47,204 nt of DNA from NCBI RefSeq assembly GCF_011059185.1, contig NZ_JAALFE010000024.1, positions 1-47,204 of the forward strand, in the 5' to 3' direction. The DNA comes from Paragemmobacter kunshanensis. Lineage in GTDB: Bacteria; Pseudomonadota; Alphaproteobacteria; Rhodobacterales; Rhodobacteraceae. Of the stretch, positions 5,930-40,607 are shown in pieces. The notes under the pieces are model-generated. The model made no database searches. It saw only the letters and a list, made by a program, of their open reading frames with translations, and was not told the DNA's origin. The stretch's first letter is position 1; each line of letters opens with the position of its first letter. The translations under genes and the position numbers were made by a program.

Positions 5930-6521
5930 GCATCAGATTTGCCTCCTGATCGCGTTTCTCGGCGCTTGAGGCATCATGGCGATATATTCAAATGCATATG
6001 GTGCAAGCGGTCACCAGATGGATTTCGACTCAATGATCGAATTTGGGCCGAAAGAGGGTCCGTGTATTCCAAGCGGAAAGGCAGAATTGTCCGCACACCG
6101 ACGATCAAGCCGCCAAAATGCTGCGCGATGCACGAAGGGCTGCAATGACGGGCCGCATTGCGGCATTGTGACAGCGAGTGAGCGTCCGGTCTGGGCCGTT
6201 AGGACCAATGTCACGATTGCATCGGCAAGCATGGCACCGGTGGCATGCGCCGAACCTGCGGCGCTTGTGAGCGGGAGGCTGGTAGCATACGGTCGTTGGG
6301 GGGATGCGCCAAGCGTTACTCTTTTTTCGGCTGCTGCGAACGAATGTGTGTGAAAGTATTCATTCTGTATTCGGCTGAGTTTTGATAGGAGGTTTCTTCA
6401 AACTTGGTGTATTTAACAGCGCGAAACATTAATAGCTTGGCGGGTATGCGGTAAGCCGATTTGTGGTGGTTTACAGCGATTGGCCGCTTGTTTTCTGTCC
6501 AGGATAGTATTCCATAAGAGC
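5930..6521. other. Non-coding region with degenerate intergenic repeat sequence
   Basis: About 590 bases without a supportable gene. The part around 6112-6200 resembles the degenerate repeat family seen in other spacers (AAAATGCTGCGCGATG here, and the same string near 30344). The final part before the HNH gene (6340-6520) is AT-richer and likely carries its promoter. Confidence 0.4.
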
Positions 6522-7445
6522 ATGACAAAGCTCGTGCTGCTACATAAAGCGGACTCTATTTACGATGACGAACCTGACGTCGTCTACGACTTTCCGCGCA
6601 GCTATCTCAGGGCTGTCCAAGAAGCCGTGGGCGACTGGGTCATTTACTATGAGCCAGTGAAAGCTGGGCCACGTGGGTATTTCGCGGTTGCGAAGATCGA
6701 GCATGTGATCCCGAAGCCCGGATTTGAGGGTCGGTTCCTCGCCATGATCGAACCGGGCAGCTTCCTGCCGCTTGATACTGAAGTTCCAAGGCTGATCAAC
6801 GGCAGTCCATTGGAACAGGCTCTCACGGAGCCAGATGGAACGCCGAAGAAAGGTGGGGCCGTGCAGCTCGCGGTGCGGCGTCTCCCGGATGAGGATTTCG
6901 CTCGGATTGTGCGACTAGGGCTTCCTGAAGACCTCGAGAGGCAAGAGGCATCACGATACGATCCAAAGGGGGCGGAGGTGGCCGAGAAGGCGGCGATCTT
7001 CGAGCGCCCGGTCTTGGAACGCCTCACACGGCGCCCATACCGGGACGTCGCGTTCCGCCGGAAGGTGCGCGAGGCTTACGACTACCGCTGTGCCATGTCC
7101 GGGCTAATGCTCAGAAACGGCGGAGGGCGCCCGGAGGTGCAAGCAGCCCATATCCGCCCCGTCGAACATAACGGCAGCGACTCCGTAAGGAACGGGCTGG
7201 CTCTGTCAGGCACATTGCATTGGATGTTCGATCGTGGGCTGATCTCGGTCGCCGATGACGACGAGACAATCCTCGTTTCGCGCAACAAAGTTCCGGGCGA
7301 CGTCGTTGACCGGCTTTTACGTCCGGATGGAAAAATCCGGATGCCCGAAGACGAGAGAAACTGGCCGCACCCTGCAAATCTGGCATGGCATCGAGAGAAC
7401 ATCTTTGGTCAAATGTCGTCTGAAGATCTCGTTCCTTGGGAATAA
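6522..7445 (+). CDS. HNH endonuclease, first gene of a two-gene DNA module
   Basis: Protein of 307 residues. The ATG at 6522 (MTKLVLLHK) is preferred over an in-frame start at 6480. The C-terminal third carries an HNH_2-type nuclease: YRCAMSGL, AAHIRPVEHNG, then NGLALSGTLHWMFDRGLISV, which supplies the catalytic histidine, asparagine and histidine. The N-terminal 150 residues (YDFPRSYL, GDWVIYYEPVK, GYFAVAKIEHVIPKP) have the look of a PUA/EVE-like fold, a group that includes readers of modified bases; this is inference from pattern only. The gene ends 10 bases before the giant helicase start, so the two are probably one operon. Possible job: a sequence- or modification-dependent nick or cut that loads the helicase. 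Confidence 0.82.
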   Translation: MTKLVLLHKADSIYDDEPDVVYDFPRSYLRAVQEAVGDWVIYYEPVKAGPRGYFAVAKIEHVIPKPGFEGRFLAMIEPGSFLPLDTEVPRLINGSPLEQALTEPDGTPKKGGAVQLAVRRLPDEDFARIVRLGLPEDLERQEASRYDPKGAEVAEKAAIFERPVLERLTRRPYRDVAFRRKVREAYDYRCAMSGLMLRNGGGRPEVQAAHIRPVEHNGSDSVRNGLALSGTLHWMFDRGLISVADDDETILVSRNKVPGDVVDRLLRPDGKIRMPEDERNWPHPANLAWHRENIFGQMSSEDLVPWE

Positions 7446-7455
7446 ACCTGCCAGT

Positions 7456-10400
7456 ATGAAAAAAATGATTTCCCGAGGCATATCGAAAGCCCTTGCCCGC
7501 GGTCGACCACAGCAGCCCGAAAAACCAAAGGCTGATGCGCCGATCAATAAGGGTATTCAAAGGACGCGGGACCAATATGAAATCCTTTCGCGCTGCCTGT
7601 CGGTTGATTTGGAGGTCAATCCCAAAGAAGCCCGGATATTCGCCTTCGCCGCCGTGCCCGAAGGTGAAGGAGAGGGGATCGTTCATCGGAAAGGGGATCC
7701 GAGGGCGTCGCTTGGAAAACTCGACCTGTTCTGCGCAGGCTTCGCGCATGTCATCGGGCACAATATCCTACGCCACGACTTGCCGCATCTCATGGCGGTG
7801 TCGCCGCGCTTCGCAAAGCTCGCGGATGGACCGATCGACACGCTGTGGCTTAACCCCTTGGCTTTTCCGCGCAATCCCTATCACCGTCTGGTCAAACACT
7901 ACCACGATGGGCGGCTTCAAAGTGGTCACGTCAACGATCCCGAGTTCGACGCGCGTCTTGTGTTCGAGGTTCTTCGCAAACAGATCGACGCCTTGGTATC
8001 GCTGAACACGTTGTCGCCCGAGACGATGTTGGCCTATCACTGGCTCTGCTGCCGAGGGCCCAGTAGCGATGGATTTGATCGGTTGTTCAGCGACATGCGT
8101 GGGGCGTCCATTCCGACGGAAGAGGAAGCTCACAGGGCTATTCGGGCGCTGCTAAAAGAGGCAGCCTGCGGCGCCCAGGTGGAGGCTGTGCTCGAGCGGC
8201 TCTCGGACACTGGGCTGGGCTGGCCGATGGCATATGCTCTTGCCTGGATTTCGGTGGCTGGCGGGGATTCTGTCATGCCGCCCTGGGTGCGGGCGCAATT
8301 TCGGGACGCCGCACGGCTCGTCAAAGACTTGCGGGACACGAATTGCCGTGATCCGTACTGTGCTTATTGCGCAGAGCACAACGATCCCACCCGTGCCCTC
8401 AAACGCTGGTTCGGCTTCCCGAGTTTCCGCCCGGAACCGGTCGACGAGGACGGACGCCCGCTTCAGGAAAAGATAGTTGCGGCGGCCATGGACGGCGAGA
8501 ACCTGCTGGGCATCCTGCCGACGGGCACGGGCAAATCCATCTGCTATCAAATCCCCGCGCTGTCTCGGTTCGACAAGACCGGGGCCTTGACCGTCGTTAT
8601 ATCGCCGCTCGTGGCGCTGATGGCAGACCAGGTTCAGGGCTTGGCGCGGGCCGGAATTTCCTCGGCGGTTACGATTAACGGGCTATTGTCCTTGCCCGAG
8701 CGTCAGGATGCGCTCGACAAGGTGCGGCTTGGGGATGCCGCGATCCTTTTGATCTCGCCCGAGCAACTGCGCAGCACAACAGTCCGGTCCGCTCTGGCAC
8801 AGCGCGAGGTGGGGCTGTGGGTGCTGGACGAGGCGCACTGCGTGTCCAAATGGGGGCACGATTTCCGACCCGACTATCGCTACGTTTCGCGGTTTATCAA
8901 GGAAAGCTCAGACGACGAACCGGCTCCGGTGCTTTGCTTGACCGCAACGGCGAAACCGGACGTGGTGCAGGACATTCGCAGCCACTTCAGAGAGCGATTG
9001 GGGGCCGAGCTGGCCTTAATCGACGGTGGCGCATCGCGGTCGAACCTGAGCTTCCAAGTATTGCCAACGCAGCGGGCAACCAAGATGACGGATATCCTCG
9101 ACACGATCGAAGCGCAGCTTCCGCGCGAGGGTGTCTCTGGGGCGGTCGTCTATTGCGCGACCCGAAACGCTACCGAGCGCGTGGCGGAGTTCTTGAAACA
9201 ACAGGGCATCGCTGCCGAACGGTATCATGCCGGCCTCAGCGCCGATGACAAACGTGAGATCCAGGAGGATTTCCGTGTCGGCAATCTGCGCGTTATCGCG
9301 GCCACCAACGCTTTTGGTATGGGGGTCGACAAGCCGGACATCCGTCTGGTGGTTCACGGGGACGTGCCGGGGTCGCTGGAAAACTACCTGCAGGAGGCAG
9401 GGCGCGCCGGACGGGACCGCGATCCAGCAAATTGCGTCCTTCTCTATAACACTGAAGACGTCGATCGTCAGTTCAGCCTCAGCGCGCGGTCACGGCTTGC
9501 GCGGCACGAAATCGGTGCGATCCTGAAAGCGCTTCGGCGCCTTGATGCAAGGACCGGAAAAGGTGGTGAGATCGTTGCTACGCCGGGTGAGATTGTCCAC
9601 GAGGAAAAAGACCGGGATTTCCAGCGAGACAGCAACACCGACGATACGCGGGTAAAAACGGCCGTTGCCTGGCTGGAAGAGGCGCATCTTCTCAATCGCG
9701 AGGAAAACCGGGTGCAGGTGTTTCCCGCCTCGCTTCGGATAAAGAGCATGCAGGAGGTCCGCGAAATCCTTGCCTCCGCCGAAATCACCGAGCGGCGCCG
9801 CCAGGATCTGGCCGCCATCGTGCAGCATATCATCAACGCGCCGCAGGAAGAGGGCATCACCACCGACGAGCTTTGCGGGGTCAGTGGGCTCGCGGTGTCG
9901 GGCGTGCGCAAGGCCCTGGCGGATCTCGAGGCACTGGGGATCGCAAAGGATGATACAAACATCACAATCTTCGTGCATGTGCGTATCAAGAATGCCTCCC
10001 CGAAACGGTTCGAGGCTGCATCCCGCCTTGAAGCCGACCTGATCGCGACCCTGAGAGAGCAAGCGCCAGACGCGGAGATCGGCGAGGCTTGGCCGTGTCA
10101 TCTGGCCTCGGTGGCGCAGGCTCTGCGAGAGCAGGGACACGCCTCCGTGCGACCCGATATTGTCGAGGGGCTGCTCCGCGGAATTTCGCAGGATGGCCGG
10201 GACATGGATGGCGGCAAAGGCAATATCGGCCTGCGCAAGGCCTCCAAAGGCAGTCTCATGGTGCGACTGCAAAGATCTTGGGCGGTCATCGAGCAGACCG
10301 CTCAGCTGCGCCGCCAGGCGGCGGAACGTCTGGTGTCATACTTGATCGACAAGGTTCAGGCCGGCCTGCAGGGGAAAGACATTCCTGTCGAGACCACGCT

Positions 10401-12708
10401 TGGCGACCTTCTTGCTGCAATCAACAGCGACGCGCTCTTGCGGGCGTCCGTGAATGATCCGTCGAAGCTGATGGATCGCGCGCTTTTGTGGCTGCATGAA
10501 CAGCAGGTCGTAACCCTGGGTAAGGGATTGTCCATATTCCGCTCGGCCATGACGTTGCACATCAATCCAAAAGGGGGCAACTTTACCGCCCAGCATTTTG
10601 CGCCGTTGGAAGACCACTACAGCGAACAGACCGTCCAGACCCACGTGATGGCTGCCTATGCGACCAAAGGCATCGACGATATCGATCAGGCGCAGCGGTT
10701 CGCATATGACTATTTCGTATTGGAACAGTCCGACTTCATGAAAGCCTGGATGTCGGGGAAGATGTCGGAGTTCAGACGGCAGGCGACGCCCCGGTCCTAT
10801 GCCGAGATCGTCGACAATCTGGGGAATTCGACACAAGAGCAGATCGTGCGTGACGACCGCGAACAGACCAATGTGCTTGTGCTTGCGGGGCCGGGATCGG
10901 GCAAGACACGGGTGCTCGTCCATCGTGTCGCCTATCTGGTCAGGATCAAGCGCGAAGATCCAAACGGTATATTGGTGCTCGCCTACAATCGTCATGCGGC
11001 CGCCGAGATTCGGGAGCGCTTGCGTCTACTGATTGGCGAGGATGCTCGCTTCGTGACGGTCCTGACCATCCATGCCCTGGCCATGCGGCTGGTTGGCGCG
11101 AGCTTCGCCGGACAGGCAGGAGCGGATGAGCCTGATTTCAAGACGCTTCTGACCGATGCGGCACGTCTCTTGCGTGGCGACGGTCTGGACAAGGTCGAGG
11201 CCGAAGCCTTGCGAGAGACCTTGATTCAGGGGTTTCGCTGGATTCTCGTGGATGAATATCAGGACGTGGGGCCCGAGGAATACGCCTTGATCGCGGCTGT
11301 GGCGGGGCGCAGCATCGACGATCCGGATCAACGGATCAGCCTCTTCGCCGTCGGTGATGACGACCAGAACATCTATGCCTTTGCCGGTGCATCGGTGCGA
11401 CACATCCGGCAATTTGAACAGGATTATTCAGCCAGGCCGATCTTTCTGACCGACAATTACCGCTCGTCGAAGCACATCATCAGCGCAGCGAACGCGGTGA
11501 TCGAAGGATCTCGGGAACGTATGAAAACAGGGCATGGTATTACCGTCGATCAATCGCGGCAAAGGGGCCCGGCCGGGGGGCTCATGGAAAGCCTCGATCC
11601 GGTTGCGCAGGGGCGGGTCCAGATTTTGGGTTGCCCGGCAGGGAATGACGCTCAGGCGCTTGCGGCGGTTGGCGAGATGCTCCGCCTGTCCAAACTGATC
11701 CCGGATTGGAGCTGGAAGGGTGCGGCCATCATTTCTCGTGATTGGCGCAAGCTTTTGCCGGTCCGCGACTTTGCCGAGGCGCATGGAATTCCTGTCGAAA
11801 TGGCGAACGAGAACTTGCCCAGCTTGTGGCGCACTCGTGAGATGCAGGGGTTTATCGGCGGCCTTCGCGAAATGCGCGGGGCCATGGTCAGCTTGGACGA
11901 TCTGACCGAAATCCTGAACGCGATACCCGCCAGCCGTTGGACTGACCGGATCGGCGAGGGACTTGGCCAGCTTGCGCGCGAAGTTGACGGAAAGGCGCTC
12001 CCGACCCCTGACGTGATTGAATGGTTTGCCGAATGGTCGAAGGATTCATGGGGCGAGCAGCGCGGCCTCAAACTGTTGACGGCGCACCGCGCCAAGGGCC
12101 TCGAATTCGACGATGTCGTGATCATGGATGGCGGCTGGGAGCGGCCCTCGCGAAACGAAGATCAGGACGCACCGAGGCGATTGTTCTATGTCGCCATGAC
12201 ACGTGCGCGGCGCAATTTGATCGTCATGAGCAACGACAATCACGAATACCTTCCCAACGAGTCGCCCTCCGTGATCACGCGGCATGTGGTGCCCGACCTG
12301 GCGACAGTCCCCGGCCCGCGCCGGTTCTTTCAATCGCCCGAAATGAAGATGGTCGACCTGTCATTCGCAGGACGCCAAGGTGATCGGCACATTGTTCATG
12401 CTGCGATCTCCGAAGCAGAGGTCGGCGCGCCGGTCAGGCTCTCCCAGGTCGGGGATCGCTGGCAGATCGAGGATGCCCGGGGGCGGGCCCTCGGGCGGAT
12501 GTCAAAAGCGTTCGCGCCACCCGCCCGCACGAAATTCGTCACCGGCGAGATCGCGGCCATCATATATTGGCGCAAAGAGGATGCCGATGAGCGTTTTCAT
12601 CATTTGCTGAAACGCGATGATTGGGAAGTTGTTGTGCCTGAGATCGTTTTCGAAGAGGTCAAGGGAGCTTCCGAAATGGTTATTGGGAGAGATCAGAACG
12701 GTAAATAG
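7456..12708 (+). CDS. Giant exonuclease-RecQ-UvrD fusion helicase
   Basis: 1750-residue protein with three catalytic modules. Residues 45-175 look like a DEDD 3'-5' exonuclease (D51-x-E53, GHNILRHD with D108, NDPEFDA with D165). A CRDPYCAYC cysteine cluster follows at 297-305. The RecQ-like SF2 helicase has Walker A LPTGTGKS (354-361), DEAH box plus RecQ-specific HCVSKWGHDFRPDY (458-474), and QEAGRAGRDRDP (646-657), then a winged-helix-like segment near 700-760. The UvrD-like SF1 helicase has Walker A GPGSGKT (1145-1151), DEYQD (1266-1270), VGDDDQNIYAF (1299-1309), TAHRAKGLEFDDV (about 1543-1555) and YVAMTRARR (about 1578-1586). ATG 7456 is chosen because an earlier in-frame start would overlap the HNH gene deeply. 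Likely DNA defence or repair; exact role unknown. Confidence 0.85.
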   Translation: MKKMISRGISKALARGRPQQPEKPKADAPINKGIQRTRDQYEILSRCLSVDLEVNPKEARIFAFAAVPEGEGEGIVHRKGDPRASLGKLDLFCAGFAHVIGHNILRHDLPHLMAVSPRFAKLADGPIDTLWLNPLAFPRNPYHRLVKHYHDGRLQSGHVNDPEFDARLVFEVLRKQIDALVSLNTLSPETMLAYHWLCCRGPSSDGFDRLFSDMRGASIPTEEEAHRAIRALLKEAACGAQVEAVLERLSDTGLGWPMAYALAWISVAGGDSVMPPWVRAQFRDAARLVKDLRDTNCRDPYCAYCAEHNDPTRALKRWFGFPSFRPEPVDEDGRPLQEKIVAAAMDGENLLGILPTGTGKSICYQIPALSRFDKTGALTVVISPLVALMADQVQGLARAGISSAVTINGLLSLPERQDALDKVRLGDAAILLISPEQLRSTTVRSALAQREVGLWVLDEAHCVSKWGHDFRPDYRYVSRFIKESSDDEPAPVLCLTATAKPDVVQDIRSHFRERLGAELALIDGGASRSNLSFQVLPTQRATKMTDILDTIEAQLPREGVSGAVVYCATRNATERVAEFLKQQGIAAERYHAGLSADDKREIQEDFRVGNLRVIAATNAFGMGVDKPDIRLVVHGDVPGSLENYLQEAGRAGRDRDPANCVLLYNTEDVDRQFSLSARSRLARHEIGAILKALRRLDARTGKGGEIVATPGEIVHEEKDRDFQRDSNTDDTRVKTAVAWLEEAHLLNREENRVQVFPASLRIKSMQEVREILASAEITERRRQDLAAIVQHIINAPQEEGITTDELCGVSGLAVSGVRKALADLEALGIAKDDTNITIFVHVRIKNASPKRFEAASRLEADLIATLREQAPDAEIGEAWPCHLASVAQALREQGHASVRPDIVEGLLRGISQDGRDMDGGKGNIGLRKASKGSLMVRLQRSWAVIEQTAQLRRQAAERLVSYLIDKVQAGLQGKDIPVETTLGDLLAAINSDALLRASVNDPSKLMDRALLWLHEQQVVTLGKGLSIFRSAMTLHINPKGGNFTAQHFAPLEDHYSEQTVQTHVMAAYATKGIDDIDQAQRFAYDYFVLEQSDFMKAWMSGKMSEFRRQATPRSYAEIVDNLGNSTQEQIVRDDREQTNVLVLAGPGSGKTRVLVHRVAYLVRIKREDPNGILVLAYNRHAAAEIRERLRLLIGEDARFVTVLTIHALAMRLVGASFAGQAGADEPDFKTLLTDAARLLRGDGLDKVEAEALRETLIQGFRWILVDEYQDVGPEEYALIAAVAGRSIDDPDQRISLFAVGDDDQNIYAFAGASVRHIRQFEQDYSARPIFLTDNYRSSKHIISAANAVIEGSRERMKTGHGITVDQSRQRGPAGGLMESLDPVAQGRVQILGCPAGNDAQALAAVGEMLRLSKLIPDWSWKGAAIISRDWRKLLPVRDFAEAHGIPVEMANENLPSLWRTREMQGFIGGLREMRGAMVSLDDLTEILNAIPASRWTDRIGEGLGQLAREVDGKALPTPDVIEWFAEWSKDSWGEQRGLKLLTAHRAKGLEFDDVVIMDGGWERPSRNEDQDAPRRLFYVAMTRARRNLIVMSNDNHEYLPNESPSVITRHVVPDLATVPGPRRFFQSPEMKMVDLSFAGRQGDRHIVHAAISEAEVGAPVRLSQVGDRWQIEDARGRALGRMSKAFAPPARTKFVTGEIAAIIYWRKEDADERFHHLLKRDDWEVVVPEIVFEEVKGASEMVIGRDQNGK

Positions 12709-16268: not shown

Positions 16269-17819
16269 GGGCTTATTCTGTTGAAAAACGCAGCTTGCGT
16301 GAAGCCTTGGTCGCTGATTCAATTTCCACGTGGCAGGTGGAGATGAACGGCGATGATGGGATCGCGACAGCAAGCGCAGGGCGCTCTTTTCTACGAGTTC
16401 TCGATCGAGACACATGTCCCGGCCGACCATATGCTCCGGGCGGTGGACCGGTTTGTCGATCTGGCCGATATCCGGCAGCATCTGGCCCCGTTCTACAGCT
16501 CCACCGGGCGACCGTCGGTTGATCCCGAACTGATGATCCGGATGCTACTTGTTGGCTACATCATGGGTATCCGTTCGGAACGTCGGCTGTGCGAAGAGGT
16601 CCATCTCAACCTCGCCTACCGCTGGTTCTGCCGCCTCGATCTGACCGCCCCGGTGCCGGACCACTCGACCTTCTCCAAGAACCGACATGGCCGTTTCAGA
16701 GACAGCAATCTGCTGCGCCATCTGTTCGAAACGGTGGTTGCCCGCTGCATCGCGGAGGGATTGGCAAGCGGCCAGCGCTTTGCGGCAGACGCCAGCATCA
16801 TTAAAGCGGACGCGAACCGGCAGAACTCAACGCCCAAGGCGGATTGGCAGCCTGACAAGATCGATCCCGAGGAGGTGCCCAAGGCGGTCAGGGAATACCT
16901 GGCTACGCTCGATGATGCGGCGTTCGGCGCGGCAAGCCCGGTCGAGCCGAAGTTCACCTCGCATTCCGATCCCGCGTCACAATGGACCGGGGCACGGGGT
17001 GGACCAGCCTATTTTGCATATTCCACCAACTACTTGATCGATACCGACAATGGCGTGATCCTTGACGTAGAGGCCTCCCGTTCGATCCGCCAGGCTGAAG
17101 TCGGGTCGGTGCGCACCATGATTGATCGTGTGAGCGATACCTTCGCTCTACAACCAGAATGCCTGATCGCCGACACTGCCTACGGCACGGGCGAGATGCT
17201 GGACTGGCTGGATCGCCAGCGCGGGATCGCGCCTCATATCCCGGTGTTTGACAATTCGACTCGCCGGGATGGAACATTTGAACGCACCGACTTCACCTAT
17301 GACGCCGAGCAGGACACCTACACCTGTCCGGGCGGCAAGGAGTTGAAACAGAACCGTCGGGCCTTCACGACGGCCAGAGAGCAGAAGCCGGACGAGCATG
17401 GGATGCTGCGCTACCGGGCCAGCAAAGCCGACTGCGATGTCTGCGAACTGAAAGCACGCTGCTGCCCGAAGGCGCCTGCGCGCAAGGTGCTCCGGTCGAT
17501 CTACGAGCCATCCCGCGATCGGGCCCGTGAGATCGCTCAGACCACGGAATACGCGATCTCCTGCAAACTGAGGAAGAAGGTCGAGATGCTGTTCGCCCAT
17601 CTGAAGCGGATCCTGGGGCTGAACCGTCTTCGATTGCGGGGCCCTCTCGGCGCGCGCGACGAATTCCACCTCGCAGCCACCGCCCAGAACCTCCGGAAGC
17701 TCGCAAAGCTCCTACCCCCACCACAAATCGCCTGCTGAATAGAGGCCGGCCAACACGCGCTCAATTTCGGGACACACCCACAGAGGCTACTGGGGCGAGT
17801 TTTTCAACGGAATAGGCTC
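16269..17819 (+). mobile_element. IS1182-type insertion sequence
   Basis: An element of about 1.55 kb bounded by imperfect 21-bp inverted repeats. The left end reads GGGCTTATTCTGTTGAAAAAC (16269-16289) in 21 positions with three mismatches to the reverse complement of 17799-17819. One transposase gene fills it and is intact. No convincing target duplication is visible, so the ends may be off by a few bases. Confidence 0.75.
16353..17738 (+). CDS. IS1182-family transposase
   Basis: DDE transposase of 461 residues that cuts and moves the surrounding element. The N-terminal DUF772-type region (HMLRAVDRFVDL, GRPSVDPELMIRMLLVGYIMGIRSERRLCEEV, VPDHSTFSKNRH) is typical of IS1182. The catalytic acids are in FAADASIIKAD, LIADTAYGTGEMLDWL and KKVEMLFAHLKRILGLNRLRLRG. 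A CxxC-type cluster (CDVCELKARCCPK) lies between them, as is usual. The frame is complete, so the element could be active. Confidence 0.92.
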   Translation: MMGSRQQAQGALFYEFSIETHVPADHMLRAVDRFVDLADIRQHLAPFYSSTGRPSVDPELMIRMLLVGYIMGIRSERRLCEEVHLNLAYRWFCRLDLTAPVPDHSTFSKNRHGRFRDSNLLRHLFETVVARCIAEGLASGQRFAADASIIKADANRQNSTPKADWQPDKIDPEEVPKAVREYLATLDDAAFGAASPVEPKFTSHSDPASQWTGARGGPAYFAYSTNYLIDTDNGVILDVEASRSIRQAEVGSVRTMIDRVSDTFALQPECLIADTAYGTGEMLDWLDRQRGIAPHIPVFDNSTRRDGTFERTDFTYDAEQDTYTCPGGKELKQNRRAFTTAREQKPDEHGMLRYRASKADCDVCELKARCCPKAPARKVLRSIYEPSRDRAREIAQTTEYAISCKLRKKVEMLFAHLKRILGLNRLRLRGPLGARDEFHLAATAQNLRKLAKLLPPPQIAC

Positions 17820-30427: not shown

Positions 30428-31504
30428 TCACCGTCGCCCAAGCCGTCCCAGTCTCGCCAGCTGCGCCAGCATTTTTGATCCCGAGTCTGCGGATCCTGTG
30501 CCGCCTCCGGAACCCGTCTGTCCCATGCCTTGCCGTACTGGCATTTGCTGTACGCCAAAGAACTGCCGCGCCCTGAGGGCTGCGTATTCTGCTCCACTGG
30601 CCCCGCCGATGAGGTAGCGATTGTAGGCCTGCTGGCTTCCCATGGCGGCGCGAGCGAAGCTGTAGCCGCCGCCGAGGCCACCGGAGAGGGCGGGCATCAT
30701 GATGTTGCCGGAGATCGCGCGGACGATGAAGGGTGTTGCGATTATGAACCCTTTGGCCATGAGCACCATCATAAAGAAGGGTATGAGCGCGCCGATGTTG
30801 GAAGCTCCTTCCGGATCACCCAACTCGCCTATGAGAGCCGAGGCCACCCCGGTGATGGTCGCGAAGACCCCTGCGACCACGATAGGGTAGATCGCGAAGG
30901 AGATAAGCGCGGATAACCAGCGCGCGAAATAATCCTTGGTGACCTCGAAGAGGGTCAGGAAAATCATCACCGGGGCGATCCCGATCAGAAGCGCGATCAT
31001 CAGTCGGGAGGCCACGAGGATGAAGGCGGCCAGTCCGCCGAGGATCGAGAGCAGAAGCACACCGACGATGTCGAGCATGGCGCCAGCCATCCAGTTCAGC
31101 TCGGACCCGGCAGCGTTCAGATAGTCGCCCAGCTCCGCGATCAGCCGGTCGAATTCTTCGGCGAAGGTGCCTGAGGGGCCAGGGCTGCCGCCGCCGACGG
31201 AGGCTACCAGCGCACCCGCGATACTGTCGATCCCATAGAGAATGGCAGACGAGAACGCGTTGAACTGCATCCAATTGGTCGCGAATATCCCGATGAGCCC
31301 GATCTTGGCCGCGAGCCAGAAGGCTGTGTGCCCATCCATGGCCCGGTATTGATAGATCATGTTGATTCCGACGAGGATCACCACCAACGTTGTCCCCAAA
31401 ACCAGGAGCGTGCCGACCGTTGCCGCAACCGCACCAAACTGGGTCTCAGCGGCGGTGTCGAGATAGGCCTGGGAGGTTTCAACGAAGTAGGTGACGACGC
31501 TCAT
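30428..31504 (-). CDS. virB6: VirB6/TrbL-type inner-membrane channel protein
   Basis: Polytopic protein of 358 residues, last gene of the VirB operon. It has about seven hydrophobic segments and the family-typical central stretch LLLSILGGLAAFILVASRLMIALLIGIAPVMIFLTLFEVTKDYFARWLSALISFAIYPI. VirB6 forms part of the inner-membrane pore of type IV secretion. The C-terminus is glycine/serine- and basic-rich. Its place at the operon end, instead of between virB5 and virB8, differs from the Agrobacterium order. Confidence 0.88.
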   Translation of the reverse strand: MSVVTYFVETSQAYLDTAAETQFGAVAATVGTLLVLGTTLVVILVGINMIYQYRAMDGHTAFWLAAKIGLIGIFATNWMQFNAFSSAILYGIDSIAGALVASVGGGSPGPSGTFAEEFDRLIAELGDYLNAAGSELNWMAGAMLDIVGVLLLSILGGLAAFILVASRLMIALLIGIAPVMIFLTLFEVTKDYFARWLSALISFAIYPIVVAGVFATITGVASALIGELGDPEGASNIGALIPFFMMVLMAKGFIIATPFIVRAISGNIMMPALSGGLGGGYSFARAAMGSQQAYNRYLIGGASGAEYAALRARQFFGVQQMPVRQGMGQTGSGGGTGSADSGSKMLAQLARLGRLGRR

Positions 31505-31516
31505 CGCGGGGCTGCC

Positions 31517-31927
31517 TTACCAATTACCTGCGGCGTCGCAGATGGCCCGGGCTTCCGGACGGGCGGCGTTGGCGCGGCGGTTGTAGCCTTCCGAGGCTTC
31601 GAGCATTTCCCATCGTTCGTCGCTCGCGTAGCTCTCCCGAAACACGGCCTCGGCCGCGTCCCAGGACGGGAACCGGGTCGCGCAGTCGCAGTTGCCGATC
31701 TCGACGACCCGCTCGAGATTCTGGGCGCGATAGATGTCCTGAACCAGAACCCGCTGATAGGCTTGGCGCAGGGGGATCTCCTGCATCCAGACGGGCTCGG
31801 CGGGCCGGTCCAGACAGACGTCAAAGCTGCGATCGAGGGTTGGCACTAGGTTGCGCTCGGCAACGGCGAAGGCAGGCGTCAGGCTTAGGGCCAGTGCGGC
31901 CAAGGCGAGGTGCTGCGCCTGCCTCAT
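31517..31927 (-). CDS. Small exported protein of the VirB operon (unknown)
   Basis: Protein of 136 residues with a signal peptide (MRQAQHLALAALALSLTPAFAVAE). The mature part contains four cysteines: one in FDVCLDRP, two in GNCDCATRF and one in AICDAAGNW, so disulfides are likely. I do not recognise a family. It sits between the DUF4177 gene and virB6, overlapping the former by 4 bases. Candidate periplasmic helper of the secretion channel or adhesin-like factor. Confidence 0.75.
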   Translation of the reverse strand: MRQAQHLALAALALSLTPAFAVAERNLVPTLDRSFDVCLDRPAEPVWMQEIPLRQAYQRVLVQDIYRAQNLERVVEIGNCDCATRFPSWDAAEAVFRESYASDERWEMLEASEGYNRRANAARPEARAICDAAGNW

Positions 31928-32118
31928 GCCGTGGCTCCAGCGGGTGTGGTTTCGCGTTTCAGGAAAACGGTGTGCCCGATATTGGCGAATTCTGAAGTGC
32001 TGATCGACACCACCTCCCAGCCTTCTGCACCTTTGGCATTCAGGCTGGCCTGCATGTCGGCAAGGCTGGTCTTACGAGTCATGGGAAAGGACAGGATATC
32101 GTATTCAAAGGTCTTCAT
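31924..32118 (-). CDS. DUF4177-type small protein
   Basis: Protein of 64 residues: MKTFEYDIL, then ADMQASLNAKGAEGWEVVSIS and TVFLKRE. This beta-alpha-beta pattern with the LNxxGxEGWEVV box is typical of DUF4177. Function unknown. It overlaps the virB11 end and the next start by 4 bases each, so it is a true member of the operon. Confidence 0.8.
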   Translation of the reverse strand: MKTFEYDILSFPMTRKTSLADMQASLNAKGAEGWEVVSISTSEFANIGHTVFLKRETTPAGATA

Positions 32119-33101
32119 GGGGAAATTCCAATCTCAGTTGCGCCGGGCAGGTAGAATTCGGTGATGCCGCGTTTGCCGTCATGGCGACCGGCCTGGATGA
32201 TCACATCGATGGAATTTTCGATGTACTGGATCATGTCGGCATAGGTCATCGGGATCTCGGTCTTGAGTGCTGCGATCGCGAGGCGCTGCACGGCCAATTG
32301 CGGGGTTTCGGCATGCAGTGTGGTCATGGACCCGCCATGGCCGGTGTTGATGGCTTCCAGAAAGGTCATGGCCTCCTTGCCGCGCACCTCGCCCAGGATG
32401 ATCCGGTCGGGGCGCATGCGCAGCGTGGCGGTGAGAAGCACATCGGCGGTCTGGAATTCCGCGTCACGATTGGCGATGAGGGTCACGGCATTTGGCTGGG
32501 TCGGTAAAAGCTCGGCGGCTTCTTCGATGGTCACGATGCGTTCCTCGGCCGGTACGTGAGAGAGGATCTTGCGCGCGGCGACGGTCTTGCCAGTGGAGGT
32601 GCCACCCGAGACGATCATGTTGAGTTTGTTCTCGACGCAGAAGGCCAGCGCATCATCGATCAAACCCGCGGCCACCACTGCGCGCAAGGCGCGCTTTTTT
32701 TCGACGCGCAGGTCTTCGAGCTTGCGCTCTTTTCCGTAGAGGAAATCGAGCGCAATGCCCTCGAGTGGCAGGCTTGAGAAGAACCGCAGGCTGATCGACA
32801 TGGCCGAGAGCACGGCGGGCGGGGTGATGACCTGTGCGCGGATCGGGCGCCCCTTGTAGGTGATCGAAACCGAGACGATGGGGCGGTCCTTGCTCATCGT
32901 GGTATTGGCCGATGAGGCGATCTGGTTGCCGAGGTCCCTGACCTGAACGCCGGTCAGCCTCTGGTCCAGCGCGCGCATGAAGTGATCGCCCTGGAATTCG
33001 CCCCAGCAGGTGCCATCAGGGTTGATGCAGATCTCGATGACATCGTCGCGAGCGGCGGCGTCGATCCGGTCGAGCGAGGTTTCGAGATAGCTCAGCGACA
33101 T
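32115..33101 (-). CDS. virB11: VirB11 secretion ATPase
   Basis: Cytoplasmic traffic ATPase of 328 residues, hexameric in the family. Walker A GGTSTGKT is at residues 166-173; TIEEAAELLP (Asp/Glu box) and the LRMRPDRIILGEVRGKEAMTFLEAINTGHGGSMTTLHA region follow with Walker B and the His box. ATG 33101 (MSLSYLETSLDRI) is chosen; a longer in-frame extension overlaps virB10. It powers pilus assembly and substrate transfer with VirB4. Confidence 0.93.
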   Translation of the reverse strand: MSLSYLETSLDRIDAAARDDVIEICINPDGTCWGEFQGDHFMRALDQRLTGVQVRDLGNQIASSANTTMSKDRPIVSVSITYKGRPIRAQVITPPAVLSAMSISLRFFSSLPLEGIALDFLYGKERKLEDLRVEKKRALRAVVAAGLIDDALAFCVENKLNMIVSGGTSTGKTVAARKILSHVPAEERIVTIEEAAELLPTQPNAVTLIANRDAEFQTADVLLTATLRMRPDRIILGEVRGKEAMTFLEAINTGHGGSMTTLHAETPQLAVQRLAIAALKTEIPMTYADMIQYIENSIDVIIQAGRHDGKRGITEFYLPGATEIGISP

Positions 33102-33105
33102 GGGC

Positions 33106-34485
33106 TCAGAATATCTCCAGATCGCGGTCGACCATGACCGTGACGCGGGCGCCCTGGTCGACATAGATGACGGGGCCGATGGAGAGGTAATCGCCGATGA
33201 CGCTGTCCGTCGCATCTGCCAGATCATCGCCCACGTCTTCGAGAACGTCGACGGCAGTCTCATCCTGGACCTCGGAGGCGGCGGCACCAGGTGCTGCCGA
33301 AATAAGCGAGATCAGGGCGGCCGACCCGAAACGCTCGGCGAAGCGTGTGTCTATGAGGCCGGTGACGCCAGAACGGCCCAGTTCGTCACCTCCGAATGAG
33401 CTGATCTGGACGGTCTGGCCCGCGGGCAGGATTATCCGGTCCCAGGCGATCGTGACGCGGCGCTGCGCGATATCGACGCCAGCGCGGTAGCGCCCGATGA
33501 GACGGGATCCGCGGGGGATCAATAGGCGCGCGCCATCGACGCTGTAGACATCCTCGGACACCACGGCACGGGTCTGGCCGGGCAGCGAGCTGTCGAGGGC
33601 AGTTTCCATGACGGCCTGGATCATGGTGCCCTGTAGAATCGTGTTGGAGGGATTGGCGATCACCTCGGCCTGCGTCACGGTGGAGGGCAACGCACCGTTC
33701 AGCACGAAATCCGTCACCTCGCCAAAAGTGCGTTCAGTCAGAGCCGTTTCATTCGCTCCGGATGCACCGCCAAAAGCGATGGTGGGCGAGGTGATGCGCC
33801 GCTCCTGGAAGGCGCGTTCCTCCGCGGCGCGGCGCTCCAGCTCGGCCATGCGCCGGGCTTCTTCCTCGCGGCGCAGTCGCTCTTGCTCGCGTGCGCGCAG
33901 CTCATCTTCCGTGGGGCCCGCTGGGGCGTGTTGGGGTCGGCTGGCCTCGAGTTGGGCCAGTTCCAGATCCATGCGGAGTTGCTCAAGGCTGCGATCCCGC
34001 GCCGTCAGTTCGTCCTGAAATCGTTGCTGTGCGGCTTCCGAGGCGGCTTGTAGCGCCGCGATCTGAGCGGTCAGCGCGTCGATCGCCTCTGCGGCGGCGG
34101 TGTCTTCCTCGACGACCGGTTCGGGGGCGTTGCGCAACTCCTCGATCTGAGCCTGCAGGGCGGTGATCTGCGCCAGAAGCTCCGCGTTGGGCTCGACGGG
34201 GTCTGGTCCGACAAACACAACCTCGGGCTCGGGCGGGGGCAAGGTCTCGATAGCGCCAAAGCCGTCCCCCTCGTTTTGGAAGACGTCCGGGGTGGCCGTC
34301 GGCAAGGCTTCCTCTTCGTCGGGCTGTGAGAGGAGATAGAGCAGGGCACCACCTGCGCCGATGACGAGGACCACGATCAGCGCGAGAAAGGGCGACCGGC
34401 GCTGCGCCGCTATGGGCGCGCGGGCACTGCCTTTCTCAAGGGCGGCGAGGCGTTTTTCCAGCTCGGTGTTCTCAGTATCGCTCAT
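33106..34485 (-). CDS. virB10: VirB10/TrbI channel protein
   Basis: Protein of 459 residues spanning both membranes. One membrane helix is at residues 31-50 (SPFLALIVVLVIGAGGALLYLL), then a proline-rich stretch and a long coiled coil (about 95-225, glutamate/alanine rich, EELRAREQERLRREEEARRMAEL). The C-terminal TrbI domain follows: ILQGTMIQAVMETALDSSLPGQTRAVVSEDVYSVDGARLLIPRGSRLIG. The very long coiled coil is larger than in Agrobacterium VirB10. The start overlaps virB9 as ATGA. Confidence 0.92.
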   Translation of the reverse strand: MSDTENTELEKRLAALEKGSARAPIAAQRRSPFLALIVVLVIGAGGALLYLLSQPDEEEALPTATPDVFQNEGDGFGAIETLPPPEPEVVFVGPDPVEPNAELLAQITALQAQIEELRNAPEPVVEEDTAAAEAIDALTAQIAALQAASEAAQQRFQDELTARDRSLEQLRMDLELAQLEASRPQHAPAGPTEDELRAREQERLRREEEARRMAELERRAAEERAFQERRITSPTIAFGGASGANETALTERTFGEVTDFVLNGALPSTVTQAEVIANPSNTILQGTMIQAVMETALDSSLPGQTRAVVSEDVYSVDGARLLIPRGSRLIGRYRAGVDIAQRRVTIAWDRIILPAGQTVQISSFGGDELGRSGVTGLIDTRFAERFGSAALISLISAAPGAAASEVQDETAVDVLEDVGDDLADATDSVIGDYLSIGPVIYVDQGARVTVMVDRDLEIF

Positions 34486-35177
34486 GAGGCGGCCTCCGCG
34501 GGCGGGATCGCCTCGATGCAGACCACCTCTTCGCCAAGTCGCAGGACCCATTGGCGGTTTACGCCGCTGACGCGGATCACGCCGTCTTCAGGGGTTTGCG
34601 TGTTGACCGTGCGCTCGCGGCCGCCCGCGTAGCGGAAGATCGCTGGCACAGGTGCGTTTCGCGGAAACGCGAAATATGTAAACGTCCCGTCATCCCAGAT
34701 GCGGGTTGGCGTGAACTCGGTCCGCGCGCTGGCACCGTAATTGTAGTTCGGCGCTTGGGCGGCGATGGCCCGGGTCGGGCGCGCAGCGTCGTCAGGATAG
34801 CGGAACTGCACCACGTAGAAGGTCGGGCTGCGGACCTCCTGGACGTTGAAATAGTAGCTGCGCCTGTTCGTGTAGACGGTCACATTGGTATGGACGCCGC
34901 GCGCCACAGGCTTGATCGCGAAGGCCTGACCGCCCGGCACGCCATCGATCTCAAACCCTTCCGTGTCGCCCGCGATGATCGAGCGGATGCTTTCACCCTC
35001 ACCGAATTCGACCGTGGTCACATGGGTAAGCGAGACGCTGAGGCGGTAGACCTGACCTTCTTGATATGTTGCCAGCCGCACGCGGCTGTCATTTGGACCA
35101 CCGCGCGGGATCGCTTCGGCAAAGGCAAGGGCAGGCAGCAAAACAAATATGGCAGCAACAAAGACCTTATTGATCAA
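34482..35177 (-). CDS. virB9: VirB9 outer-membrane complex protein
   Basis: Periplasmic protein of 231 residues with the start at TTG 35177, set by a GGAG site and by the signal peptide (INKVFVAAIFVLLPALAFAEA); the in-frame ATG at 35252 lies in virB8. It contains the VirB9/CagX domain: YQEGQVYRLSVSLTHVTTVEFGEGESI, then TPTRIWDDGTFTYFAFP and RVSGVNRQWVLRLGEEVVCI. With VirB7 and VirB10 it builds the outer-membrane core of the channel. Confidence 0.9.
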   Translation of the reverse strand: MINKVFVAAIFVLLPALAFAEAIPRGGPNDSRVRLATYQEGQVYRLSVSLTHVTTVEFGEGESIRSIIAGDTEGFEIDGVPGGQAFAIKPVARGVHTNVTVYTNRRSYYFNVQEVRSPTFYVVQFRYPDDAARPTRAIAAQAPNYNYGASARTEFTPTRIWDDGTFTYFAFPRNAPVPAIFRYAGGRERTVNTQTPEDGVIRVSGVNRQWVLRLGEEVVCIEAIPPAEAAS

Positions 35178-35178
35178 A

Positions 35179-35832
35179 CTAATTCTCCAATCTGTCGGAG
35201 CGGATGGAATATTCGAGGACGGTGAAGCCGAATGGATTGGTCCAGACCTCATCGATGGAGCGGCGGGTCTCCGGGCGGAACTCGAAGAGAAGCGTCGCAG
35301 TGAAGAGGCCGGTCTGGGTGCCGTTAATAGACGTCAGGCGCTTGCGCAGGCGGACCGTCGCGCGGTTGGTTCCGATCCGGTTGATGCTAAGGATTTCCAC
35401 GTCGAGCCGAGCATTGGGGCCATAGACCGTCGGCGGGTAATTCTCGTTGGCGCTGTTCCAGATCTGGCGCAGACCGCTCTCGGCGGCCCCATCCGAGCGG
35501 CGCAGGACGCTGCGGATGCGCAGATCGTTGTCGAGCTGGTTATAGACCTCCCGGTCGGTCACATAGCGGAACACCTCCGCCTCGATGATCGCCTGGTTGG
35601 CGGTCACCGAGGAGGCGCCCACCGAGGCTTCGGGGAGTGCAAAGCCGGTGGCGGGATCATAGGGGACAACGACGGGGGGCGGGTCGACATCGAGGATCGA
35701 GACAGCCGCGGCACTCAGACAGCCGATGATACCGAAGACAAGGCCCATCAGGCCAAGGCGTTGCCAGAGCCGTTCGCGGCGTAAGGCACCATAGACCAGT
35801 TCTTCCTCGATGATTTCTTGTTCAGTCGCCAC
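35179..35832 (-). CDS. virB8: VirB8 inner-membrane scaffold
   Basis: Protein of 217 residues with one N-terminal membrane helix (residues about 25-46, LGLMGLVFGIIGCLSAAAVSIL) and a periplasmic NTF2-like VirB8 domain (REVYNQLDNDLRIRSVLRRSD, YPPTVYGPNARLDVEILSI, RVRLRKRL-type, then FRPETRRSIDEVWTNPFGFTV). The NPFGF end motif is characteristic. It nucleates channel assembly with VirB9 and VirB10. Confidence 0.92.
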   Translation of the reverse strand: MATEQEIIEEELVYGALRRERLWQRLGLMGLVFGIIGCLSAAAVSILDVDPPPVVVPYDPATGFALPEASVGASSVTANQAIIEAEVFRYVTDREVYNQLDNDLRIRSVLRRSDGAAESGLRQIWNSANENYPPTVYGPNARLDVEILSINRIGTNRATVRLRKRLTSINGTQTGLFTATLLFEFRPETRRSIDEVWTNPFGFTVLEYSIRSDRLEN

Positions 35833-35849
35833 CCGTCATGCCCCCACGA

Positions 35850-36662
35850 TCAGTCTGCCCGGAGGTCCGGTAGCGTGAAATCCATGAAGCGCTGCTCTTC
35901 GGCGATGGTGGCGGCATCGATCACGCCGCCCGTGCCATCGCCCACGGTTTGAATCGCTTCCAGCTGCCACATTGCCACGAGGGCGATGGCCAATTCAGCT
36001 GTCACGCGCGTGTTGAGATCGACGCTTTGCTTGAGCTCTTCCATGTCGTCGATGAGCCCGACAAGGCGGTCTACCCGCTCGAGCGACTGGCCGGCATCTT
36101 CATAGCTGTTCTGGGCGGCGGCTGAGACGAGTGCGCCGGTTGTTGCCTGCGTGGCCACACGGTTGGCCCCGGGATTGCCGCTGGTGGCCATTTCCGAGAG
36201 CGTGTCTTCATCGAAGCCGAGATCGGCCAGCACCCGGTCCATCTGGGTTTCGATCTCCCCCGCGCCGGAGCCCGAGAGGCCCGAGAAATCCCCAGTCTTG
36301 ATCGCCTCAATCGTGGCTAGGATGTCCCCGAACTCCTGGTCGAGCAGACCGTTCAATTCATCTTCCATTTCCGTCCGGATGATTTCGGGAAGCTCGGCAA
36401 GTCGGGTGAGGGCCTCGTAGGTTCGTTGCAGCTCCGCGAGTTGGTCCGTGAGAAGGCCGAGCTGTTCGCGGAGCTGCGTCAGCTGCTCGTTTTGCAGGAT
36501 CTCGTCTTCGATCATCTGTCGCAGCTGCTGGATATTTTGCGCGATGTTCTGGGTGTCGACGACCGGTACACCTTGTGCTGCGGCAGGGGGTAGGGCGCTG
36601 AACTGCAAGCCAACGCCAAGTGCCGTGGCCAAAGCTGTCCTCAAGAGCAGATGTCCCATCAT
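35850..36662 (-). CDS. virB5: VirB5/TrbJ-like pilus-tip protein
   Basis: Protein of 270 residues with a signal peptide (ending PAAAQG) and mainly helical mature region: QNIAQNIQQLRQMIEDEILQNEQLTQLREQLGLL, typical for TrbJ/VirB5. The end (EEQRFMDFTLPDLRAD) resembles the end of the adjacent transglycosylase (MAEGAFMDFTIREIE), suggesting both carry the same VirB5-like tail. It overlaps the preceding gene by 4 bases. Confidence 0.8.
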   Translation of the reverse strand: MMGHLLLRTALATALGVGLQFSALPPAAAQGVPVVDTQNIAQNIQQLRQMIEDEILQNEQLTQLREQLGLLTDQLAELQRTYEALTRLAELPEIIRTEMEDELNGLLDQEFGDILATIEAIKTGDFSGLSGSGAGEIETQMDRVLADLGFDEDTLSEMATSGNPGANRVATQATTGALVSAAAQNSYEDAGQSLERVDRLVGLIDDMEELKQSVDLNTRVTAELAIALVAMWQLEAIQTVGDGTGGVIDAATIAEEQRFMDFTLPDLRAD

Positions 36663-37813
36663 TCAATCTCCCTGATCGTAAAATCCATGAACGCGCCTTC
36701 GGCCATGCGGGCGCTGGCCTGGGCCAGCTCTTCGGCAGAGAGGACGCGGGTGCGTGCCGCCTGAAGCCGGATGCGGGCGGCCACGAGACGCACCAGTTCG
36801 GCGCGGGCATAGGTGTTGAGTGCGACGCTCTCCTGCACGTCCTCGGTTTCGGAAATCCGTTCGACGATATCGCGGATGCGCATGGCGGCTTGCCTGATCG
36901 TGGCTGGTGAGTTGCTGCCATAAAAGGCCGCGCCGTGCCCAGTGAGCGAGAGGTTGGCATTGGCCAGAAGCGCGGGGTCGATCGTGCCAAGCGCTTCGAT
37001 TCCGCCGATACGAGTCAAATAGAGGTTATAGCGTTCGGGGATCACCTGGACGTAGTGCTGGGTCTCGCGGAAGGGTGGCACGCCGCCATACTCGAAGACC
37101 CGGCCGGGTCCGGCGTTATAGGCCGCAAGGGCGTTGATGATGTTGCCATCGAAGGTGTTGAGTTGTGTCGCGAGATAGCGTGCACCGCCATGCACCTGCA
37201 GGTAGGGGCTGTCATAGTATTCCGGATTGATGCCCAGATCGCTGGCGGTACCGGGCATGATCTGGGTGAGACCATAGGCGCCGACGGGAGACCGTGCCCC
37301 AATCGTAAACCGGCTTTCCTGCCAGATCAGCGCTTGCAGCAACGCGCGCCACTGGACGGGCGAGAGCCCTGCGCGGCCAACACCCGCAAAGCCGCTGGTC
37401 TCCTGGGCGACCCGGATGATGAGCTGCTCGATGGTCTCAGACGCATCCCCGAACATCTGCGCACCGCCGCGATTGGGATCGATCTCGCCCGTTCCATAGA
37501 CGGCTTCCACGGCGCGGTCGGGATCGCCGCTGCCGCTTTCCAGCCCCGAGACCATAGCCGGCAATCCCTGACCGCCGAAGCTGGTCTGGGCATCGAGGAT
37601 GCGTCGGAGGGTTTCCAGCTGCTCCCGTTCGATCTCGGCGATGAGTTCGCGCACTGCAAGCTTGTCGGCCTGAAGGGCCAAGTCTGCTTCGCGATCGCCG
37701 GTCTCGACGATGTCACGCGCGGTCAGCCCACTGTCATTGGTCGGCACACCTTGGGACAAGGCGAGACCGGGCAGCAGGCAAAACGCCAGGATATGAGGCA
37801 GGCTAGACTTCAA
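36659..37813 (-). CDS. Lytic transglycosylase fused to a VirB5-like tail
   Basis: Protein of 384 residues starting at TTG 37813, with GGAGGG 5 bases upstream; the in-frame ATG at 37879 lacks such a site. A signal peptide (KSSLPHILAFCLLPGLALSQ) is followed by a helical stretch. An SLT domain then appears around residues 150-265 (ALIWQESRFTIGARSPVGAYGLTQIMPGTASDLGI with catalytic Glu, later LNTFDGNIINALAAYNAGPGRV). A C-terminal helical part ends FMDFTIREIE, like the TrbJ-type neighbour. It should open peptidoglycan for the channel, in addition to the VirB1-type enzyme of the same operon. Confidence 0.82.
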   Translation of the reverse strand: MKSSLPHILAFCLLPGLALSQGVPTNDSGLTARDIVETGDREADLALQADKLAVRELIAEIEREQLETLRRILDAQTSFGGQGLPAMVSGLESGSGDPDRAVEAVYGTGEIDPNRGGAQMFGDASETIEQLIIRVAQETSGFAGVGRAGLSPVQWRALLQALIWQESRFTIGARSPVGAYGLTQIMPGTASDLGINPEYYDSPYLQVHGGARYLATQLNTFDGNIINALAAYNAGPGRVFEYGGVPPFRETQHYVQVIPERYNLYLTRIGGIEALGTIDPALLANANLSLTGHGAAFYGSNSPATIRQAAMRIRDIVERISETEDVQESVALNTYARAELVRLVAARIRLQAARTRVLSAEELAQASARMAEGAFMDFTIREIE

Positions 37814-37970
37814 TGTCGCCCTCCGGGGTGCCAAGGGGCGTGAAGTCACAATCAGGCGCGACGGTTGCCGTGGACGCAAGGAATGTGAAGCAGTTCGCCT
37901 GCGGCTCCCGGTACTGGGTGCAGGAGGCCAGTGCGCCGAGCGCAGCCAAAGCGATAAGAATACGGATCAT
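37803..37970 (-). CDS. virB7: VirB7-like small lipoprotein
   Basis: A 55-residue frame on the minus strand: MIRILIALAALGALASC then TQYREPQANC. The LASC lipobox predicts cleavage and lipidation at Cys17, with two further cysteines at 27 and 41. The ATG overlaps the virB4 stop as ATGA, and the end overlaps the TTG start of the next gene. Size, lipobox and place in the operon match VirB7, the lipoprotein that anchors VirB9 in the outer membrane. Sequence similarity beyond this cannot be claimed. Confidence 0.8.
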   Translation of the reverse strand: MIRILIALAALGALASCTQYREPQANCFTFLASTATVAPDCDFTPLGTPEGDIEV

Positions 37971-40342: not shown

Positions 40343-40607
40343 AGCTGTCCCCGCCATGGATGCTGCGGTTTCGCGTGGGTGGCGTCTCCTGCAGCGCGGT
40401 CATCATCAGGTCGATGAAACGCGGGTCCCAATCGGCGGCCTTCCAAAGCACCGGGTAGAGCAGGGCGGCCACGCCCAGCACCGCGATGTGCTGGACCCAG
40501 ACGAACAAGAGTACCGAGCCGAAGAGCCAGACCATCGCGTACATGATGGGCAGGCCCAGAAGCTTGGGCGGGCGCACGAGGCCGAGGAAGAGAGGCGCGC
40601 GCTCAGC
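40332..40607 (-). CDS. virB3: VirB3 inner-membrane protein
   Basis: Protein of 91 residues beginning at GTG 40607 (VAERAPLFLGLVRPPKLLGLPIMYAM), which overlaps the virB2 stop by a few bases; an in-frame ATG at 40652 would overlap virB2 by 50 bases and seems too long. Two membrane segments, LFLGLVRPPKLLGLPIMY and VLLFVWVQHIAVLGVAALLY, match VirB3. The start RAPLFLGLVRP is the family hallmark. Confidence 0.88.
   Translation of the reverse strand, partial: AERAPLFLGLVRPPKLLGLPIMYAMVWLFGSVLLFVWVQHIAVLGVAALLYPVLWKAADWDPRFIDLMMTALQETPPTRNRSIHGGDSYAP

Follow-up and report, generated by a model that had tools for sequence, protein, structure and literature searches.

An exonuclease-RecQ-UvrD fusion protein of Paragemmobacter kunshanensis: a patchy, widespread family with an optional EVE-HNH partner and a possible role in defence

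Contig NZ_JAALFE010000024.1 of Paragemmobacter kunshanensis carries an HNH nuclease gene followed closely by a gene for a very large fusion protein. The window, as the whole analysed stretch of DNA is called here, is the complete 47,204-base contig (C35) of the 4.46-Mb genome G000. The first gene (6522..7445, + strand) encodes a 307-residue putative modification-dependent endonuclease of the EVE-HNH type. Its stop ends at 7445, and 10 bases separate it from the ATG, at 7456, of the second gene (7456..12708, + strand), whose 1750-residue product, hereafter the giant, joins a DEDD exonuclease, a RecQ-type helicase and a UvrD-type helicase in a single chain. A sequence-only reading had described this layout, which stands as two open reading frames, and had proposed the pair as a candidate undescribed defence system. 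As a pair the proposal fails: the HNH gene belongs to the described EVE-HNH endonucleases, and it is an optional partner whose association with the giant is repeated, not obligate. The giant represents a patchy, accessory and widespread family, and this family is the actual find of the locus.

The three modules recognised in the sequence-only reading were all recovered, and they are encoded in order along the + strand. The DEDD (DnaQ-like) exonuclease module occupies 7582..7995 (residues 43-180) and is followed by a three-cysteine motif, C297-x4-C302-x2-C305, identified by alignment at 8344..8370 as a possible metal site. Next come the RecQ-type superfamily 2 (SF2) helicase module (8380..9555, residues 309-700, Walker K360), a middle region conserved in a 75-row alignment (9556..10785, residues 701-1110), the UvrD-type superfamily 1 (SF1) helicase module (10786..12255, residues 1111-1600, Walker K1150) and a poorly conserved C-terminal tail (12256..12705, residues 1601-1750). 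Pfam recognised UvrD-helicase (3.9e-39), DEAD (2.4e-33), Helicase_C (2.2e-21) and UvrD_C (1.8e-15) in the giant. The RecQ family profile TIGR00614 passed its cutoff of 219.8 bits with a score of 303.7, which places the protein in the RecQ family; orthodox RecQ was rejected, the TIGR01389 equivalog giving 359.3 bits against a cutoff of 640.2 and covering residues 315-672 only. The two motors had been described as coming from opposite families, and SF2 and SF1 are indeed both present, but they do not have to differ in polarity, since motors of the RecQ and UvrD types usually travel 3' to 5' alike.

The N-terminal exonuclease module has no Pfam match at E 0.001. Its assignment comes from a predicted DnaQ-like DEDD exonuclease fold (Foldseek best E 6e-3) combined with four acidic residues: of 75 aligned rows, 72 have D51 and E53 (three gaps) and 74 have D108 and D165 (one gap). 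Membership of the DEDDh class was considered and rejected. The position five residues ahead of the last Asp, where such enzymes carry His, holds Asn in 71 and Ser in three of the 74 rows with a letter there, and a conserved N-[DN]-P-x-x-D at residues 160-165 replaces the usual His-x4-Asp. When the exonuclease region was searched against PDB as a single sequence there was no match, and the corresponding profile gave 16 weak matches, the sole relevant one being DinG (E 0.095). A diverse alignment of 47 giants, confined to open frames above 1400 residues with shorter or cut homologues excluded, retains intact RecQ and UvrD Walker motifs in every row and the exonuclease region in 46, of which 45 keep all four acidic residues. 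The three cysteines between exonuclease and RecQ (C262, C267 and C270 in A3) are invariant in 68 aligned rows; the motif is absent from the cyanobacterial plasmid homologues L221, L222 and L225 and incomplete in L224.

The HNH assignment of the first gene was sound (PF13391, HNH_2, at 42.7 bits, the cutoff being 21), but the sequence-only reading had missed an extra N-terminal domain. The predicted fold places an EVE/PUA-like domain, a putative reader of modified bases, at residues 1-146 (6522..6959, + strand), ahead of the HNH nuclease domain at residues 171-306 (7032..7439, + strand), so that the protein is of the EVE-HNH type, a described kind of putative modification-dependent endonuclease. 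Cleavage by enzymes of this kind is expected to depend on 5mC/5hmC. The C-terminal HNH domain is also seen in profile matches to VcaM4I (1.9e-8) and TagI (1.1e-8). Residues H210, N224, H233 and D237 are invariant across 20 aligned homologues, as is P25. The HNH moniker residues of VcaM4I are H224, N241 and D250 (PMC7897488), and its base-flipping pocket is formed by P24, W82 and Y130; in the alignment H210, N224 and H233 pair with the three moniker residues, H233 and not D237 standing opposite D250. The same genome holds a second EVE-HNH copy, 74% identical, at G000:C30:180234-181151 (L129, L156), and the fetched 18 kb around it contain no giant. At another locus (L164, 216-5570) an EVE-HNH gene lies beside what appear, by eye, to be genes for an ATPase of the OLD type and for a UvrD helicase, an arrangement with a Gabija-like look.

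Neither gene of the window is a chance open reading frame, because the ratios of nonsynonymous to synonymous substitution (dN/dS) are low, at 0.08-0.115. Purifying selection acts on the giant, with values of 0.09-0.115 against five relatives, and on the HNH gene, with values of 0.08-0.09 against L009 and L025; dS is saturated against L044 and L156. Blastn finds the two genes as a cassette shared with L009 over 6461..12708 and with L025 over 6467-12707, and in the window's lineage they are probably co-transcribed as an optional unit.

How often the two genes travel together was assessed over giant loci, taken as the best 80 among the matches listed in a search of genome contigs. An EVE-HNH gene lies within 2 kb of the giant in five of them (L009, L025, L033, L044 and L018), a lower bound because just 53 of the 80 loci span at least 2 kb on both sides; two of those 53 (L033 and L044) have the gene. 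In L009 and L025 it is directly upstream, and in each case 16 bases separate its stop from the giant's ATG. Elsewhere it stands about 0.1 kb upstream (L033), 1.5 kb upstream (L044) or convergently downstream (L018). Another 36 giant loci were drawn from plasmids, whole genomes and IMG/VR, some possibly from the same genomes, and none of them has an EVE-HNH gene. Two HNH matches of 35-36% identity to the window protein, both confined to its HNH half, were not counted as EVE-HNH: in L095 a gene annotated as HNH endonuclease, 7 kb away from the giant and beside a type I restriction-modification (R-M) system, and an HNH-domain fragment 7.5 kb away in L073.

A survey of 385 genomes of the class, at thresholds of E 1e-25 for the HNH protein and E 1e-120 for the giant, found the former in 25 genomes, the latter in 10 and both in three (G000, G034 and G357). 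The two genes are on different contigs in G034 and G357 and are adjacent solely in the window's own genome. The other 22 of the 25 HNH-bearing genomes have no giant, and none was present in any of 20 fetched regions around HNH genes, where the neighbours inspected, those of 17 regions, looked varied (judged by eye, and partly spurious open reading frames).

A quick tree of 75 giants, built on the RecQ part, requires six changes of HNH state and scatters the HNH-bearing giants over four positions, namely L018, L033, L044 and the clade of the window. Within the window's clade, L010 and L050 carry a decayed 3' remnant of the HNH gene (about 9816-9990) right before a conserved giant. In L011, of the same clade, homology begins only at the giant. 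The giants of these relatives remain under purifying selection (dN/dS 0.110-0.115). The pairing counts together with the HNH stub in L010 and L050 rule out a conserved two-gene system, and rarity of the HNH gene beside giant homologues, which the sequence-only reading had itself named as counting against its proposal, is what was observed. One could still regard the HNH protein and the giant as one obligate two-component defence machine, given the 10-base gap, the recurrence of the HNH gene in four tree places, and a cassette in L009 and L025 that begins just upstream of the HNH gene and stops at the giant's stop. The scarcity of the pair among giant loci, the giants still under selection behind a mere 3' stub, and the HNH genes that do without a giant make this very improbable. 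Co-location in four tree places nevertheless appears to exceed chance, because only 25 of 385 genomes hold the HNH gene, and it could reflect either shared islands or real cooperation.

The giant family is widespread. The window giant's nearest homologues are in roseobacters and related alphaproteobacteria, and the three-module architecture is retained down to about 30% identity. By record title the hosts include alpha-, beta- and gammaproteobacteria; homologues also occur in metagenome-assembled genomes labelled Binatia, Chloroflexota, Latescibacterota, Elusimicrobia, Acidimicrobiia and Bryobacterales (labels that may be wrong) and on plasmids of cyanobacteria, Bacteroides and Aliarcobacter. 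Patchiness extends from the class to the genus, where five of 19 genomes, including the window's own, have the gene, the other four copies being 60-63% identical to the window giant. Close copies in different genera (about 87-93% protein identity), with shared DNA that ends at gene or cassette edges, indicate that the giant spreads horizontally. It is also found on two prophage-like contigs, of which L207 has a terminase gene and L206 a phage replication gene, and a ParB-methylase gene is present in both. Among 50,697 phage records 25 had a match and none covered 80% of the giant; the best 15 of the 25 matched the RecQ part only. IMG/VR yielded 15 giant loci; two of these (L217 and L218) are partial, and in another two (L219 and L220) only a short part matches. 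The plasmid records among the matches listed label the giant as a RecQ- or UvrD-type helicase at most, or not at all.

The window fits this picture of mobility. A DDE transposase gene (DUF772, DDE_Tnp_1_6) lies at 16353-17738, and a conjugation cluster on the - strand (30428-40357) includes TrbL/VirB6, TrbI, CagE/TrbE/VirB and lytic transglycosylase genes. The mobile, accessory setting claimed from sequence alone is therefore real, and because of the conjugation cluster the 47-kb contig may be a plasmid or an integrative element. Across 41 genomes no orthologous pair of the flanking LysR and FUSC genes was found (LysR reaches 45-55% identity at best elsewhere, and FUSC matches at E 1e-60 are confined to the window's own genome), so no empty insertion site can be demonstrated.

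The giant is recurrently found near restriction-type genes that differ from locus to locus (DUF3427 helicases, PDC-S37, NOV_C, EVE-HNH and R-M genes), which lends the sequence-only reading partial support. Within 10 kb of the giant in the 80 loci, the recurring families besides the five EVE-HNH genes are the DUF3427 ResIII helicase (four), PDC-S37 (four), NOV_C/PDC-S36 (four, three of them in one tight clade) and SNF2 (three, two being sisters and the third weak). Type III and type IIG R-M genes lie within 4 kb of the giant in L208 and L064, and plasmid giants are near insertion sequence, toxin-antitoxin or R-M genes, or have Cas genes about 4 kb off; the records of two additional plasmid copies carry no annotation. 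Two hand-picked sets of neighbour proteins were compared with models. In the set of eight long proteins, five matched restriction or defence-helicase models: PDC-S37/Hhe-type proteins in L022 and L026, a DUF3427 type IV-like enzyme in L024 and SNF2 helicases in L056 and L057. Those of L012 and L014 had no PADLOC match and that of L085 is a subtilase; of the set of ten, four matched. At L026:3972-9860 a 1963-residue PDC-S37/Hhe-type protein (DUF4011, MTES_1575 nuclease) abuts the giant's reading frame, and in L022, L053 and L073 the giant likewise has a relative of this protein nearby. A WYL-domain regulator is encoded just upstream of a distant giant homologue on a Pseudanabaena plasmid (L225, 7324-8529), and similar regulators were seen by eye near L014, L015 and L053.

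The giant is most likely a stand-alone DNA-degrading defence effector, fed at this locus by the cuts of a modification-dependent nuclease; a defensive role, for which the argument is drawn from genomic context alone, is judged somewhat more probable than not. The activities can be pictured as follows. The EVE/PUA-like domain would read a modified base and the HNH domain would cut nearby, a cut that in the window's lineage could create the giant's entry site. The RecQ and UvrD motors, both expected to run 3' to 5', would load on ends, gaps or forks of foreign DNA and unwind it, and the DEDD domain would degrade the exposed strand from its 3' end. Elsewhere the giant would act alone or beside other restriction-type systems. 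The fuller proposal, that the giant acts against viruses or plasmids as a single-protein machine, belongs to an unrecognised multi-phylum defence family with no fixed partner, and in the window's lineage captured a modification-dependent nuclease to 'cut then shred' the DNA of modified-DNA phages, is more tentative and falls short of an even chance.

Several points weigh against such a role. By far the most giant loci lack the HNH partner, confidence in the EVE-HNH model is moderate (pLDDT 70.8), and in L216 a Cys replaces the last acidic residue of the exonuclease. Enzymatic activities, polarity, coupling of cutting to degradation and the antiviral or anti-plasmid role are all inferred. EVE-HNH, DUF3427, PDC-S37, NOV_C and SNF2 were all absent from 20 control regions (398 kb), a contrast that is descriptive and partly circular, the families having been picked from giant loci, and that sets unequal lengths against each other (1129 kb of giant flanks); the controls are drawn from a small number of host genomes without matching for mobility, and gene calls are simple open reading frame picks. 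PADLOC tallies covered 132 of 141 listed nearest neighbours; the nine excluded were two HNH genes, a very long gene in each of L022, L026 and L053, and four genes of lesser length. Of 140 control genes 129 were tallied, the 11 omitted being mainly long. At E 1e-10 the 132 neighbours matched 155 families (several models per gene being possible; best 25 of 155) and the 129 control genes matched 25, with one or two genes each. The control matches were to ABC (mad3, mad8), Cas12f, cyclase, Csx1 and C3a models; a Csx1-type match reached 1.5e-41, and Cas12f models were matched by a single gene. Both tallies, PADLOC and Pfam, count families and not members, so they do not give the number of defence genes among the 132 neighbours, and enrichment is stated without a P value. 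The most widely shared family reaches three neighbours in PADLOC and four in Pfam. ResIII and Helicase_C are commonest in Pfam (four each), followed by NOV_C, DUF3427, PLDc_2, DEAD and two LysR domains (three each) and HNH_2 (two); many of the other listed families are metabolic or transport families.

The main rival to a defence role is DNA repair or plasmid maintenance: the giant would be a repair or replication factor of mobile elements or their hosts, working in a WRN-like manner at forks or recombination ends, with the HNH gene incidental. Its modules resemble RecQ, UvrD and DinG, and phage genes of replication (L206) and ParB-methylase type (L206, L207) lie near it. The plasmid-maintenance version stays alive because giants on Bacteroides and Aliarcobacter plasmids are near ParA/ParB, replication or single-stranded DNA-binding protein (SSB) genes, which fits it and counts against defence. 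The recurrent restriction-type neighbours argue the other way, as do the accessory nature of the gene, its unrelated contexts and the lack of any match at E 1e-120 in 375 of the 385 class genomes. On balance this rival is rather unlikely, though it is the one to be taken most seriously.

Phages with modified DNA evade ordinary restriction. If the proposed defence role is true, a modification-dependent cutter and a single-chain helicase-exonuclease would together form a full pathway from recognition to destruction, and the giant could be a machine like RecBCD or WRN that defence has taken over. Should it instead be a plasmid or repair factor, the joining of exonuclease, RecQ and UvrD modules in one chain would remain unusual for an enzyme and would merit study.

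As to what is already described, the EVE-HNH type is known, and what is new is the fusion family, for which neither model nor description was found. Among the models listed for the giant from PADLOC 2.0, NCBIfam, Pfam and PHROGs, none spans the fusion. The best 25 of 93 PADLOC 2.0 matches to the giant cover helicase cores only, so that none of them matches a described defence system over its full length, in agreement with the sequence-only reading; DpdF (387 bits), PsyrT (319.5 bits) and GajB (182 bits) lead. A literature search found no description of an exonuclease-RecQ-UvrD fusion, which is weak evidence as subscription papers and preprints were mostly outside its scope; none of the RecQ and UvrD passages of PMC9122126, PMC5512222 and PMC11078745 concerns the giant.

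Three described systems were tried and rejected, with the check for Dpd and PsyrTA components in the giant based on those 25 best matches. Gabija fails because the HNH protein has no GajA match and the listed GajB matches are confined to the UvrD part of the giant; the sole GajA matches, both weak (0.0017 and 0.0062), fall on an ABC transporter ATPase at 1510-2319. For Dpd, the NCBIfam DpdF model gave 201 bits against a cutoff of 550, and no further component was listed for the nine window proteins scanned. GajB and DpdF are UvrD-like and RecQ/SF2-like defence motors that match the giant's helicase cores alone. PsyrTA was set aside in the same way, with no PsyrA listed for the nine proteins. 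The match of the PADLOC PsyrT model to the RecQ part does raise the idea of the giant as a helicase that acts like a toxin or in abortive infection, in the manner of PsyrT of PsyrTA, and is restrained by varying neighbours. The match is limited to residues 334-697, however, and no neighbour family is constant, so this reading is improbable, if less so than an obligate pair.

Closer parallels lie in enzymes that combine such modules. VcaM4I and other EVE-HNH endonucleases likewise join an EVE/PUA-like and an HNH domain in about 300 residues (PMC7897488); the window protein differs in that its sequence match is limited to the HNH half, in having His and not Asp at the third moniker position, and in that its gene sits, in this lineage, 10 bases ahead of the giant. 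DinG of S. aureus and B. subtilis unites a DEDD exonuclease with an SF2 helicase, whereas the giant has a RecQ-type helicase and an extra UvrD-type motor. The eukaryotic protein WRN, set against the giant by description only, also places a DEDD exonuclease ahead of a RecQ helicase in one chain; its exonuclease is of the DEDDy type and it has no UvrD motor. RecBCD and AddAB are helicase-nucleases that degrade DNA from ends, as is predicted for the giant, which departs from them in its other type of nuclease, its single chain, its combination of SF2 and SF1 motors and its place among accessory rather than core genes.

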